Assembly (NCBI GenBank): GCA_021160245.1
Contig: JAGHCW010000156.1
Location: forward strand, 1-18,029
Origin: a bacterium
GTDB taxonomy: Bacteria > B130-G9
Reading direction: 5' to 3'
DNA length: 18,029 bases
The notes under the pieces were generated by a model. The model made no database searches and was not told where the DNA came from. It saw nothing but the letters and a program-made list of their open reading frames with translations. Below, one piece after another: positions 5,052 through 15,917 of the stretch (position 1 is the first letter of the stretch; every line of letters starts with the position of its first letter). Both the position numbers and the translations under genes were made by a program.

Positions 5052-5948
5052 TCAGTGCCGTGGGTGGAATTTCGTGTGAAGACCCTTGAGACGTTCCTTC
5101 GTGATATGAGTATATATCTGAGTCGTGGAGAGATCGCTATGACCCAGCATCATCTTAAGCGAGAGTAAGTCCGCTCCATTCTCCAGAAGATGCGTTGCGA
5201 ATGAATGACGAAGAATATGCGGGTATATCGTCTTCTCTATTTCGCATTCTGCGCCATATCGCTTTATGATCTTCCACACAAACTGCCGCGTCAAATTCTT
5301 CCCGAGACGCGAGACGAACAGAAACGCTGACGTCTTGCCCTTCAGAAGCAGCGGCCGGGCGCGCGACAGATACTCATTTGCCCATGAAAGGGCAACGGTC
5401 CCAAAGGGGATTAGTCTCTGCTTTGAGCCCTTGCCCGCGCAGCGTAGAAACGCCCCCTCGAAGTCAACCTGAGCCGTCTTGAGATCGCAGATCTCGGAGA
5501 CCCTCATCCCCGTCGCATACATCATCTCCAGCATCGCTTTATTGCGCAGACCATGCGGTGAAGTCATGTCGGGAGCCTCAAGCAGCGTCTCAACCTCACG
5601 CGATGACAGAAAAGAGGGCAATCGACGCCACTTTCGAGGCGCTTGCACGTTGACAGCTGGGGACCTATCGATCACACCCTGCATAACCAAATACTTAAAG
5701 AAGTGTCTAATGCACGACAGCGCTCTTCGAGATGAGGCCGGACTCCGGCCAGAGTCCATGAGCCTCAAAAGGTAGCTCTCAACATGAGGCGCCTCGACCT
5801 CTGAGGCTACTAGTCCGTTCTCTTCTAGATATCTCCGGAAGGCTGATAGGTCATATTGATAGCTCTTGACGGTATTGAGCGAGAGCCCTCTCTCAGTCAG
5901 AAGATTGGTCGAAAATGATCCCACAAGGCTTGCGGTAGTTCCGATCAT
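5052..5948 (-). CDS. XerD-type tyrosine recombinase
   Basis: Tyrosine recombinases of this type resolve chromosome dimers at dif with a partner recombinase and FtsK, or act as integrases. The 298-residue protein has the normal Xer length, with an N-terminal SAM-like DNA-binding domain (about 1-90) and a C-terminal catalytic domain. All catalytic residues are visible: R149 (ATGMRVSE), K173 (GKGSKQR), H244 and R247 (PHILRHSF), H270 (LGHSDLST) and nucleophile Y279 (QIYTH). The tail after Tyr (THITKERLKGLH) is XerD/XerC-like rather than phage-integrase-like. The start overlaps the stop of the small membrane protein (ATGA, 5945-5948), so it is probably translated as the third gene of the selenoprotein operon. 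No attachment or dif-like site was recognised nearby. XerC and XerD cannot be told apart with certainty here. Confidence 0.88.
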   Translation of the reverse strand: MIGTTASLVGSFSTNLLTERGLSLNTVKSYQYDLSAFRRYLEENGLVASEVEAPHVESYLLRLMDSGRSPASSRRALSCIRHFFKYLVMQGVIDRSPAVNVQAPRKWRRLPSFLSSREVETLLEAPDMTSPHGLRNKAMLEMMYATGMRVSEICDLKTAQVDFEGAFLRCAGKGSKQRLIPFGTVALSWANEYLSRARPLLLKGKTSAFLFVSRLGKNLTRQFVWKIIKRYGAECEIEKTIYPHILRHSFATHLLENGADLLSLKMMLGHSDLSTTQIYTHITKERLKGLHTKFHPRH

Positions 5949-6256
5949 CTCTCTTCATGCTTAAAGTCAGCAAAGGCTCGCTTAATGAATCTGCCCCAGC
6001 AGAGCCCCATCAAGACCGCCACGACCGAACAGCTGAATATGTTCAGCAGACTGGCAAGCCCAAGCGCCTCGCATAACAGAGAGTAAATGATGTAGAGAAG
6101 AATTGCGATAGGACCAACAAGACCAATTGAGAATCCGAGCCTCGAGCCGGCAGACGGGTTCGCTCTTGGAGAAAGGAGCCGTCCAATCCCCGCGAGGACG
6201 AATGGAAGCGCGATGGCGGGGATTAGGTGCATTACTGACAATTGAAAGCTGCTCAC
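5945..6256 (-). CDS. Small three-helix membrane protein, unknown
   Basis: About 103 residues if started at GTG 6256, which has a GGAG-type ribosome site close upstream; an ATG at 6232 would give 95. Three hydrophobic stretches suggest membrane helices: LIPAIALPFVLAGIG, FSIGLVGPIAILLYIIYS, and SVVAVLMGLCWG. The tail is short and charged (FADFKHEER). The gene starts 50 bases after the selenoprotein stop and overlaps the recombinase start by four bases, so it belongs to that operon. The frame is open further upstream to 6382, but that part overlaps the cytochrome gene and reads as its shadow. I do not recognise the family. A role with the membrane-anchored cytochrome is possible but only inferred from position. 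Confidence 0.65.
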   Translation of the reverse strand: MSSFQLSVMHLIPAIALPFVLAGIGRLLSPRANPSAGSRLGFSIGLVGPIAILLYIIYSLLCEALGLASLLNIFSCSVVAVLMGLCWGRFIKRAFADFKHEER

Positions 6257-6305
6257 AACTCCCTCTCCCCCACCATCGACTTGACGCCCGTTAAAATGTC
6301 CTATA

Positions 6306-7745
6306 TCACATTGCGGAGCTTGCCGGAGCTGCCGGCTGGTGGACCAGTTTCTTGTCCCTGTACCAATCAAACGGCTTTCCATGGGCGCCGGTGTGGCATT
6401 CTCGACAGATTTGGATGTTGGGCTTCCTAAGTTTTATCTTCGAGTTGTCCAGATGCATGCTCGCCGGGCCATGACACGCCTCGCACCGCACATCAGCCAG
6501 CTGCGGCGTCTCCTTCTGATTTAAGTAGCCCCCGGAAACGCTGTATCCCGTTGTATGGCACCTGAAACAGGTCGAGTCCTTGTCCTTACCGATTCTGGTC
6601 AGCGTCGCGAGGGCATGCGCGTGCTTGGTCTTCATCCATAGCTGACTGATCTTCGGGTGACATTTGGCGCACGATGAGGTTCCCACAAACTTCGGCCTGA
6701 AAGCTAGGGCAGAGCCTGGCTTTGCCTTGTCACCAACAGAAGACATCTTCGGCGTTGGCTTCTTTCTCTGTCTGCCAGCTCGCCTCTTGGCCTCCTTAGC
6801 CATCTTGTCTATCTCTGGGTCCTTGGGAATCTTGCTGTCAATTGAGACCAATTTGCCCGTCTGCTGCGATATCTTCTTTTGCTTCATGTCAAATGTAAGC
6901 AGGAACTCGCCGACCTTCTTTCCGCGGTACGCCGCCTTCAAGAGAATGGTCCCCGAATCCTTGACCGTCTCAGGCTTATACAAGCGGCGCATGTTGCCGG
7001 AGACGATGAATAGGTGGATACCTTTGACCTGAGTCACCAGCTTCCGGGCATCCTGCATTCGCATATTGCCCATCCCGATGATCATGTCGCACTTTGCCTT
7101 GAGCTCTGAAACGACTCGCTCCGCCTCAGTAACCGGGTCCTTGACCTGAAGTTTCTCTTTGTCATCAAGGCTCATTGAACGGATAGCATCTGCCGAGGCA
7201 ACTCCGAATATGCCCACTCTGACGCCTCCGTGCTTGAACCCAAGCGTGTTCTGTTCGCCAAACGTCTTGATAACATAAGGTTTGAAGACGGGTTTCTGAC
7301 TCTTCTTATCCATGACATTCGCGGACAGGAAAGCAAAGGGAGAGTTCTTGGCCTTCTTCTGAAGATAGTCGAGGCCGTACGTAAACTCCCGCTTGCCGAG
7401 ATTGAGACAATTATAGTGCATCATCCCGTACATCTTCAGTAGGACCTCAGTGTAGATCTCGTCGCGCTTGCCCTTCTTGCCAAAGGCATCGCCCGAGTCC
7501 AGCACCAGGGAGTAGCTCCCCTTATTTGCCTTCTTTACCGCGTCTATTAAGCCTGCTCGACCAGCAAGCCCACCTTCCTTATGCTTTCACCCACAGGGAA
7601 ATAGTTCGCCCCAAGTATCACTTGAGTAAACCAGAGCCAGCTTAAAATCGTCCGGCTTCTCATCCATTCTCACGGCGACGGCAAGCAACACTCCGGCAGC
7701 GGCGACAAGACTTAAAAATACAGATATGTACCAATACTTCCGCAT
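6306..7745 (-). CDS. Selenocysteine-containing metallophosphatase-like tetrahaem cytochrome c
   Basis: Read from ATG 7745 (AGGA seven bases upstream), one frame runs to the stop at 6306 with a single in-frame TGA at codon 53 (7589-7587), giving 479 residues with TGA as selenocysteine. Residues 1-26 form a membrane anchor or signal (KYWYISVFLSLVAAAG). Residues 36-80 match the start of the UshA/5'-nucleotidase-like fold: LALVYSSDTWGELFPCG-U-KHKEGGLAGRAG. Related proteins known to me have a CGC motif before GGLARRA, so U replaces Cys. LDSGDAF keeps the family's Asp, but other metal ligands look lost (DTWG, LGKREF, SGNMRR). Residues 350-479 carry four haem sites: CAKCH 359, CFRCH 393, CEACH 421, CRECH 447, like cytochrome c554. 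The product is probably an exported or periplasmic, membrane-tethered redox protein. It is first in an operon with 5945-6256 and xer. The alternative is a pseudogene with one nonsense mutation; the SECIS-like hairpin and intact downstream frame argue against it. Confidence 0.82.
7551..7589 (-). promoter_or_regulatory. Recoded UGA plus bacterial SECIS-like hairpin
   Basis: The TGA (7589-7587) is followed 24 bases later by an apical loop GGUCG (7562-7558). It is closed by a 7-bp stem: 7569-7563 GCTTGCT pairs with 7557-7551 AGCAGGC, one U-G wobble. Bacterial SECIS elements lie in the coding region just after UGA and present a GGU/GGUC apical loop to the elongation factor SelB; the E. coli fdhF element has GGUC 18 bases after UGA. 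Position and loop both fit here. The hairpin codes GGLAGRAG, a conserved protein segment, so coding constraint explains part of the sequence. Confidence 0.78.
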
Positions 7746-7793
7746 TGCCCAATCCTAACAAGGTAAAAAAACAAAGATCACAAAACCGCAATA

Positions 7794-7822
7794 AATGTAA
7801 CCATGACTTCCGGAAGTGTCAA
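7794..7822 (-). promoter_or_regulatory. Promoter of the selenoprotein operon with palindromic operator-like spacer
   Basis: Minus strand: perfect TTGACA (7822-7817), 17-base spacer, TACATT (7799-7794, four of six to the -10 consensus). The start would be near 7787, leaving a leader of about 40 bases before ATG 7745. The spacer begins with ACTTCCGGAAGT (7806-7817), a perfect 12-bp palindrome overlapping the -35 box, as expected for a repressor operator. Confidence 0.6.
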
Positions 7823-8670: not shown

Positions 8671-9345
8671 GAAGGTCTATCAGAGCACACCATATCGGCT
8701 GAAACGCTTCAAAGAGGTCGGGTCCCAGTATAGAAAGAGCGACACGATTGACGCGGCTGCGTTGGCCAACTTGCTGCGGCTTCGGCGTGAAGAACTGACG
8801 CCGATCATCCTTCCACCGAAGGAGACAAAGGTTCTGTGTCATCTGTCGCGGTCAAGTCGCCGGCTATCTGTGGAGCGCACGCGTCAGGTGAATCATCTGC
8901 AGGGGATTATCATCGGCTATTGTCCCGATTTAAAGGCCAATTGGCCGGGCTATGATTTCACCTGCAAGACGATGCTGAGGGTGCTGAGAGAGCATCCTGA
9001 CATCGCTTCGATGGCCGAACTTTCGGATGCTGAGTTGCTTGGGAAGGTGAAGAAGTTCAGCCGGGGGCAGTTTGGCGAGAAGCACGCCTCGGCCATCAAA
9101 CAGGCGGCCGGCACGCTGATTACGCGCGATGCGGTTTGCGAGTTTGAGGCTTTGGAGATCCGCGACGCTATCTATTCGATAGAGATGCTTGACGCGAGAT
9201 TGGCCGGAAAAGAGAGGTTGATTAAAATAACGCTTGCGGGCGCTTACGTTGCGAGGCGGATAATGCTTCTGCCGGGGATATCGACGACTGTGGCCTCGAC
9301 GATCATTGGCGAGGCCGGGGACATAAGCAGGTTCGTGAACGAATA
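8650..9345 (+). pseudogene. IS110-family transposase remnant
   Basis: IS110-type transposases use an N-terminal RuvC-like DEDD domain and a C-terminal transposase_20 domain, with no long terminal repeats. The frame (stop at 8603-8605, then open) shows the end of the DEDD domain, FKEVGSQYRKSDTIDAAALANLL, around 8715-8780. It continues through a helical linker to the start of the C-terminal domain, MLLPGISTTVASTIIGEAGDISRF, ending near 9340. The N-terminal ~70-100 residues with the first acidic residue are absent. The C-terminal domain stops after GDISRF and runs into unrelated sequence to 9457. With both ends missing it cannot be active. It differs in sequence from the IS110-type piece at 15543-15917, so the two are not halves of one element. 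Confidence 0.75.
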
Positions 9346-9441
9346 CGAAAACTCCTCCTCAATAACAGTTGAGAAACTACAGCCCTTGTATCAAGATTAT
9401 CATATCATCTATGGTCACAAACATTGGGACAAAAAGGGAAT

Positions 9442-10170
9442 GATATGGAGCCCTTAACTGGGAAATGCGGCGGCGATTGCAGTCAGTGCTCGGGCCACAA
9501 GGCGAACGCGACAACGGACGAGGCGAGGCAGCGGACGAGCGACTCAAGAACCTGGACCGCATCCGCGCGACGCTTGGGCCTGAGGACTTGAACCCCCATT
9601 TAAGCCGAAGCCAATCAAGGCTCGCATCGTCCCGTTCCCCGATGACCTTCCGATTGAGCAGGACGAGGCGAATGCACTCATGGCCGTTCATGCGCTTGTC
9701 GTCGGCATTATGACCACGGGCGCCGAGAATTATGCCCATCAGTTGAGGCGCAAGAGAAGCAGACCGCAGATGATGGCGCTTCTTTTTTTTTGGCTCTTCG
9801 CGGAGACCTTCGGGAGGAAGACGGCGCGCAGATCGTTCTCGATGGCCGCGTTCACGGCGCGCGAGAGGATTGCGGTTGGCTTGTCCGCAAGCGCGACAAC
9901 GCCCTCCATAGCTTCATCCGCCACGCCACGAAGCACCTCAAGGGATTTGGGGCCCTTGTCGATTTCACCTCATTGGAGGATGGCTGGCAGCTAAAACTCT
10001 CCTTCGCCACAGCAGCAGGAGGCCCAGCCGCCCTCAAAGCGCTGAAGCGCTGGGTCGAGGCGCTCGCCAAAACACACGGCGAGCCCGTTTACGCCGGCAA
10101 TTCAAAGCTAAAGGGCGAGGCGTTCGAGCGGTTTAAGAGGGGGGATGAGATGGGGCTAAATACCAAATAA
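9442..10170 (+). pseudogene. Frameshifted gene with Cys-rich N-terminus, unknown
   Basis: An ATG at 9442 follows AAGGGA by five bases and opens MEPLTGKCGGDCSQCSGHKA, whose C-x3-C-x2-C spacing suggests a metal or iron-sulfur site. Protein-like sequence then moves through three frames: ADERLKNLDRIRATLGPEDLNP (frame of 9465), KARIVPFPDDLPIEQDEANA (frame of 9680), and EAQEKQTADDGAS onward (9745 to the stop at 10168-10170). The last includes HSFIRHATKHLKGFGALVDF. Together they would make about 240 residues. Three frameshifts in one gene, beside intact genes elsewhere, indicate decay rather than programmed recoding; a run of nine T at 9783-9791 lies inside the last frame and is not needed for a shift. 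I do not recognise the family. Confidence 0.55.
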
Positions 10171-14445: not shown

Positions 14446-14826
14446 ATGTCCAAGCACGTTTATTTGGATAATATATGCGTGGCCGTGGGCCTGCTATTCA
14501 TTTGCTCTTTGATGGGCTGCTCCTGGCGGCCTGTGAACATGCAGCCGCTGAAGAACATCTTCTATGAACCACAGCCGGGATCGCTGGAGATAGGTGATGC
14601 TCCTGGCGTGCCGATAGCTATTATCGAGAGATTCTCGGATGAAAGGTGTGGAGAGGCCACTGACCCAGATTATTACAAATCGATAACTGCTATCCCGCTC
14701 GTGCCCTATTGTACATTTGAGTTTCCCCAGTTCTACCGTGTGAAGCCCAAAGAAGGTCTGTGTCCAGACGACCCGGATTGCCCGACATGGCCCACTCTGC
14801 GCGAGCAATGCAGACGAGTTGTTTAG
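14446..14826 (+). pseudogene. Lipoprotein, probably cut short at its 3' end by an IS fragment
   Basis: ATG 14446 is preceded directly by the ribosome site GGAGAGGAG; the upstream TTG at 14434 is not needed. The N-terminus has a hydrophobic stretch (ICVAVGLLFICSLMGC) ending in a lipobox-like LMGC with C25 as lipid site, so the product should be an exported lipoprotein. The rest (EPQPGSLEIGDAPGVPIAII, then a Cys-containing stretch) matches no family I know. The frame ends at 14826, where minus-strand IS1182-type transposase sequence begins. The last residues (QCRRVV) and the stop are therefore probably supplied by the insertion, and the native 3' end is lost. The exact junction cannot be fixed from sequence alone, somewhere in about 14750-14830. 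It may still be expressed as a truncated 126-residue protein. Confidence 0.6.

Positions 14827-15917
<1,091 letters not shown>

Follow-up and report, generated by a model that had tools for sequence, protein, structure and literature searches.

UshA-like proteins with selenocysteine (Sec) in a CxU motif were described within COG0737 in the 2008 Global Ocean Sampling survey, which counted 76 Sec sequences (PMC2398784), and they were taken up again in a 2022 review (PMC9312934). A 2026 review and catalogue files the UshA-like selenoprotein under the family NF041198, or UshA_like_PCGU (PMC13188914). Our literature search found no biochemistry of the UshA_like_PCGU family, and a search on selenoproteins combined with multihaem cytochromes found nothing; the family is filed as UshA-like.

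Here we analyse a gene on the minus strand of a bacterial stretch of 18,029 nucleotides (the window), which a sequence-only reading had proposed as an unannotated selenoprotein. Judged from sequence, the gene almost certainly encodes a genuine selenoprotein of the NF041198 UshA-like (PCGU) family.

Results

The locus and its relation to described families

The features of the window on which the analysis rests are the following.

6306..7745, minus strand: coding sequence of the predicted UshA-like tetrahaem selenoprotein, 479 amino acids with Sec at residue 53, terminal TGA included; open when TGA is read as Sec, above the NF041198 cut-off, orthologues aligned end to end
7587..7589, minus strand: in-frame UGA, the predicted Sec codon 53, in the motif PCGU; 12 TGA and 22 TGC/TGT in 34 aligned homologues
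7548..7572, minus strand: bSECIS-like hairpin UGGGCUUGCUGGUCGAGCAGGCUUA with loop GGUCG; from fold energy, synonymous-codon conservation and published bSECIS rules
7668..7742, minus strand: N-terminal hydrophobic helix YWYISVFLSLVAAAGVLLAVAV, residues 2-26, putative signal anchor; from an AlphaFold2 helix and the sequence
6780..7652, minus strand: domain of the UshA/CD73/SoxB fold, about residues 32-322, most metal-ligand positions lost; from VIA-align to 4wwl and substituted ligand columns
6369..6692, minus strand: tetrahaem cytochrome c554-like domain, residues 352-459, with CXXCH at 359, 393, 421 and 447; from Pfam PF13435 and invariant motifs
7784..7816 (approximate), minus strand: sigma-70-like promoter TTGACA-17-TACATT; the same -35, 17 bp spacing and -10 stand upstream of both orthologues, by eye
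5945..6382, minus strand: ORF for a small membrane protein, real start probably further in; a similar small ORF adjoins both orthologues
5052..5948, minus strand: XerD-type tyrosine recombinase; TIGR02225 at 355.7 bits, above cut-off, same order in L084 and L085

The protein scores 280.6 bits against NF041198, a small margin over the curated cut-off of 275, with an E-value of 2.2e-83 in two stretches, and the PCG-C/U motif of the family is present in the window as PCG-TGA. Like the window protein, the family combines a PCGU or PCGC motif with an UshA-like and a tetrahaem C-terminal domain. A Cys member from another genome (L051) has four CXXCH and aligns without a break to positions 14-519 of the model, which means that the family already takes in the haem domain. 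The window protein differs from the Planctomycetota members in belonging to another, small phylum, in being only about 25% identical to them, and in having GG directly after KHKE where they have a longer K..IKLGS/VRQGS spacer. It resembles the COG0737 selenoproteins of the ocean survey in being UshA-like with Sec in CxU, a likeness by description; the survey's passages on these proteins mention no haem motifs.

Other selenoprotein families are more remote. The UshA-like selenoprotein family 2 (NF049981) has a CxxU instead of a CxU motif and is matched weakly, at 60.5 bits, below its cut-off of 140. ExtKL (NF040886) is likewise a multihaem c-type cytochrome with Sec, but the window protein reaches 16.7 bits against a cut-off of 250, through similarity of the haem region only, and ExtKL is thus another family. 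The initial statement that no selenoprotein had been described in this family was mistaken, given the match to NF041198 and the three publications cited above. Since the databases already hold the selenoprotein family, the locus represents a correctly recognized family member and not a new family; the window protein is a divergent addition to it from a sparsely sampled phylum.

Reading frame and start site

Minus-strand translation gives 479 sense codons from ATG 7745 to the TGA at 6308-6306, and the sole internal stop is the TGA at 7589-7587. The uninterrupted frame that had been read through this codon was confirmed with exact coordinates, and a mechanical ORF list likewise agreed that a default caller starts at GTG 7505 and drops 80 residues. 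These residues had been taken to provide a membrane anchor and the first strand of the fold, and in the AlphaFold2 model they indeed form the helix 2-26 and the first strand. By eye, the N-terminal MRKYWY, a Shine-Dalgarno-like stretch upstream and a promoter-like TTGACA-17-TAYATT are common to all three orthologues (the window and two others), and position 7745 is supported as the start because all three are shared.

In Planctomycetota homologues a Cys (V-x-C-P-K) is conserved close to the C-terminus, and the terminal TGA of the two orthologues (L017 and L018) falls opposite it in the alignment. We considered whether this TGA might encode a second Sec and rejected the idea, since the sequence that follows lacks conservation and Gln occupies the position in the window. 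The terminal TGA of both is probably a former Cys codon that has turned into a stop.

Selenocysteine decoding in the source genome

The source assembly comprises 3.43 Mb in 244 contigs and is 94.8% complete. The search for selA, selB, selC and selD which the initial reading had called for found all four, with SelB at 350.7 bits (above cut-off), SelA at 559.5 bits, SelD at 364.4 bits and tRNA-Sec at 75.1 bits (gathering score 47). The selD gene (L082, G000:C157:13563-14486) contains one in-frame TGA, so that SelD of this genome is probably itself a selenoprotein and the organism would decode Sec at other genes too. Moreover, tRNA-Sec is found above threshold in all three relatives within a four-genome sample of the phylum.

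Homologues and the codon-53 column

In the four-genome phylum sample, two orthologues from other genomes of the same family of bacteria, at 63% identity, have TGA at codon 53. Homologues in Planctomycetota came from a scan that covered 85,000 species genomes, and further ones from a family search of 392 genomes of that phylum; when aligned, at least nine distinct Planctomycetota homologues have TGA at this codon. Whether homologues would show Cys or TGA at residue 53 had been named as a decisive check, and every one of the 34 aligned proteins does, 12 having TGA and the remaining 22 a Cys codon (TGC or TGT). Only three columns of the 34-row alignment are invariant, and residue 53 is among them. 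Because the TGA sequences split into two clades of the homologue tree, Cys and Sec must have been exchanged at least twice, in either direction. No relative was found on viral contigs, and the best matches among plasmid records were ordinary nucleotidases and SoxB only.

Paralogues L029, L019, L020 and L025 (in G000, G001, G003 and G002, respectively) have an UshA-like domain with PCNC replacing PCGU and lack the haems; their long C-terminal part appears thioredoxin-like by eye, with a motif SFCPxSKP. In a further haemless set (L022, L023, L026 and L028), the second Cys alone is kept.

A SECIS-like hairpin downstream of the UGA

The 25 nucleotides UGGGCUUGCUGGUCGAGCAGGCUUA can form a stem of 10 bp with a GGUCG loop starting 24 nt past the UGA, at about -12.6 to -13.4 kcal/mol. 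Published rules for bacterial SECIS elements ask for a loop of 3-9 nt with a G in its first two positions, 16-37 nt from the UGA, on a stem of 4-16 bp with a minimum free energy of -7.5 or below (PMC13188914); the window hairpin, with GGUCG at 24 nt, 10 bp and -12.6 kcal/mol, lies within all of these ranges. The energy is not unusual, and fold energy alone is weak evidence, because 20 of 40 sequences that recode this GC-rich peptide synonymously fold equally well. Since energy does not discriminate here, third-position conservation was taken as the test instead. Where the three orthologues share an amino acid with degenerate codons, 23% of the 237 codons are identical in all three, and within codons 57-67 eight out of nine are; among the conserved codons 58-64, six of seven are identical, as against 15% gene-wide for four- and sixfold degenerate codons. 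The sole run of at least four identical synonymous codons in the gene (60-67) lies over the hairpin. At the level of sequence, this conservation is strong evidence for a SECIS element. In the Sec copies of Planctomycetota, another hairpin, CUGGGCAGUUUGCCCAG, follows the UGA at nearly the same distance.

Protein architecture and a decayed active site

An AlphaFold2 model was built from 34 sequences, with a mean pLDDT of 82 and low confidence in the haem part. Its N-terminal domain aligns with E. coli UshA (4wwl) at a VIA-align Z of 35.5 over 287 residues (rmsd 1.9), with CD73 at a Z of about 35 and with SoxB (2wdc) at 33.3, and a Pfam search of the window protein found no metallophosphatase domain. 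The same search places a cytochrome c554 domain (PF13435) at residues 358-426 with an E-value of 1.2e-16, and the Cys and His columns of all four CXXCH are invariant in the 29 haem-bearing homologues of the 34-row alignment. The protein had been called a multihaem cytochrome, and with four CXXCH in a c554-type C-terminal domain it can be specified as tetrahaem.

We take the metal ligands of UshA-type enzymes to be D-x-H, GD, GNHE, H and GH-x-H/Q. At these positions the window has D-T-W, GD, GKRE, N and GN-M-R, a set that departs from the ligand pattern. In the predicted model, the first strand leads into a loop that carries CGU, beside the site where the first metal ligands would stand. Compared with SoxB and E. 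coli UshA, with which it shares its fold (Z 33-35), the N-terminal domain has for the most part lost the metal ligands and catalytic His, and the protein has gained CGU and the haems.

Gene neighbourhoods

In all three genomes of the window's bacterial family, the selenoprotein gene is followed downstream by the small membrane protein, for which no family match was found in the window (5945..6382), and by the XerD-type recombinase. Upstream of the orthologue at L084, a Cas6 gene (TIGR01877, 126 bits; L084:12575-13339, in G002:C140) is flanked by genes for an MCE protein and an ABC ATPase, and the order is similar in L085. Within the window, the ORF at 14494-15633 (minus strand, 379 aa) is IS1182-type transposase-like by eye, and 8762-9457 (plus strand) looks, again by eye, like part of an IS110-type transposase, with no Pfam match below 0.001.

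Two distant Planctomycetota have a Sec copy directly followed by a Cys copy (L086:6378-9340 and L088:4756-7949). Upstream of the Sec copy are genes for an ECF sigma factor, a zf-HC2 anti-sigma protein and a beta-eliminating lyase (threonine aldolase-like), a neighbourhood that may point to a response to envelope stress. Further genomes of Planctomycetota show the Sec/Cys pairing as well.

Discussion

The proposal that TGA 7587-7589 encodes Sec is strongly supported by the decoding machinery, by a column that holds only Cys or Sec, by the SECIS-like hairpin and by the conserved start and promoter. A frame kept open by a near-cognate tRNA, or by reassignment of UGA to Trp, would look the same when TGA is translated as tryptophan. 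However, the homologues show Cys codons only and never Trp opposite the TGA, tRNA-Sec is present together with SelA, SelB and SelD, and the gene itself ends at a TGA beyond which its orthologues have no conserved sequence, which speaks against reassignment; such decoding is therefore very improbable. The fragmentation of the assembly into 244 contigs would favour a sequencing or assembly error, which, together with a nonsense mutation in a pseudogene, has to be weighed against the recurrence of TGA at codon 53: two other genomes, 63% identical in this protein, have it, and so do nine of the aligned homologues from Planctomycetota; the frame downstream is intact, with all four haem motifs kept, and neither error nor pseudogene has any appreciable probability. 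The same holds for a short gene with noncoding sequence upstream: GTG 7505 is indeed the start that default ORF callers give, but the 80 residues before it are kept in three orthologues, MRKYWY and PCGU included, they supply the first strand of the predicted fold, and the promoter-like and Shine-Dalgarno-like sequences lie upstream of 7745.

Taking the gene as a selenoprotein, we propose that SelB and tRNA-Sec would decode UGA codon 53 as Sec, directed by the hairpin just downstream, and that the product would be anchored in the cytoplasmic membrane, facing outward. The Cys-Gly-Sec pair would lie at the edge of the former active site of an UshA/CD73/SoxB fold poor in metal ligands. There C51 and U53 may act as a selenylsulfide/selenol couple in electron exchange with a small substrate or with the thiol of a protein, and the haems would deliver electrons to this centre or draw them from it. 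A selenol/selenylsulfide redox centre at C51/U53 with the haems as electron carriers appears to be the most likely mechanism, and we favour it with some reserve. A rival to this mechanism, though not to the assignment as a selenoprotein, is a working metallophosphoesterase/nucleotidase or SoxB-like hydrolase tuned by Sec. Such an activity would fit the fold, which is that of UshA, CD73 and SoxB, but it is unlikely, since in the window GNHE is replaced by GKRE, the positions of the later His ligands are taken by Asn and Arg, and Asp43 and Asp86 alone remain.

Under the favoured redox mechanism, a nucleotidase fold that has lost its metal site might have been converted into a selenol redox enzyme wired to haems. 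Sec would then have been fixed on separate occasions in the small phylum of the window and in Planctomycetota, and the substrate might be new to selenoenzymes; we offer this broader scenario tentatively, as somewhat less probable than its alternatives taken together. The tandem pairs of Planctomycetota would make the value of Sec over Cys testable in one operon. A UGA-aware reading of raw sequence can recover real selenoproteins that are cut by default ORF callers, and in the present case the window adds to the UshA_like_PCGU family a branch that is divergent and has a SECIS-like hairpin of its own.
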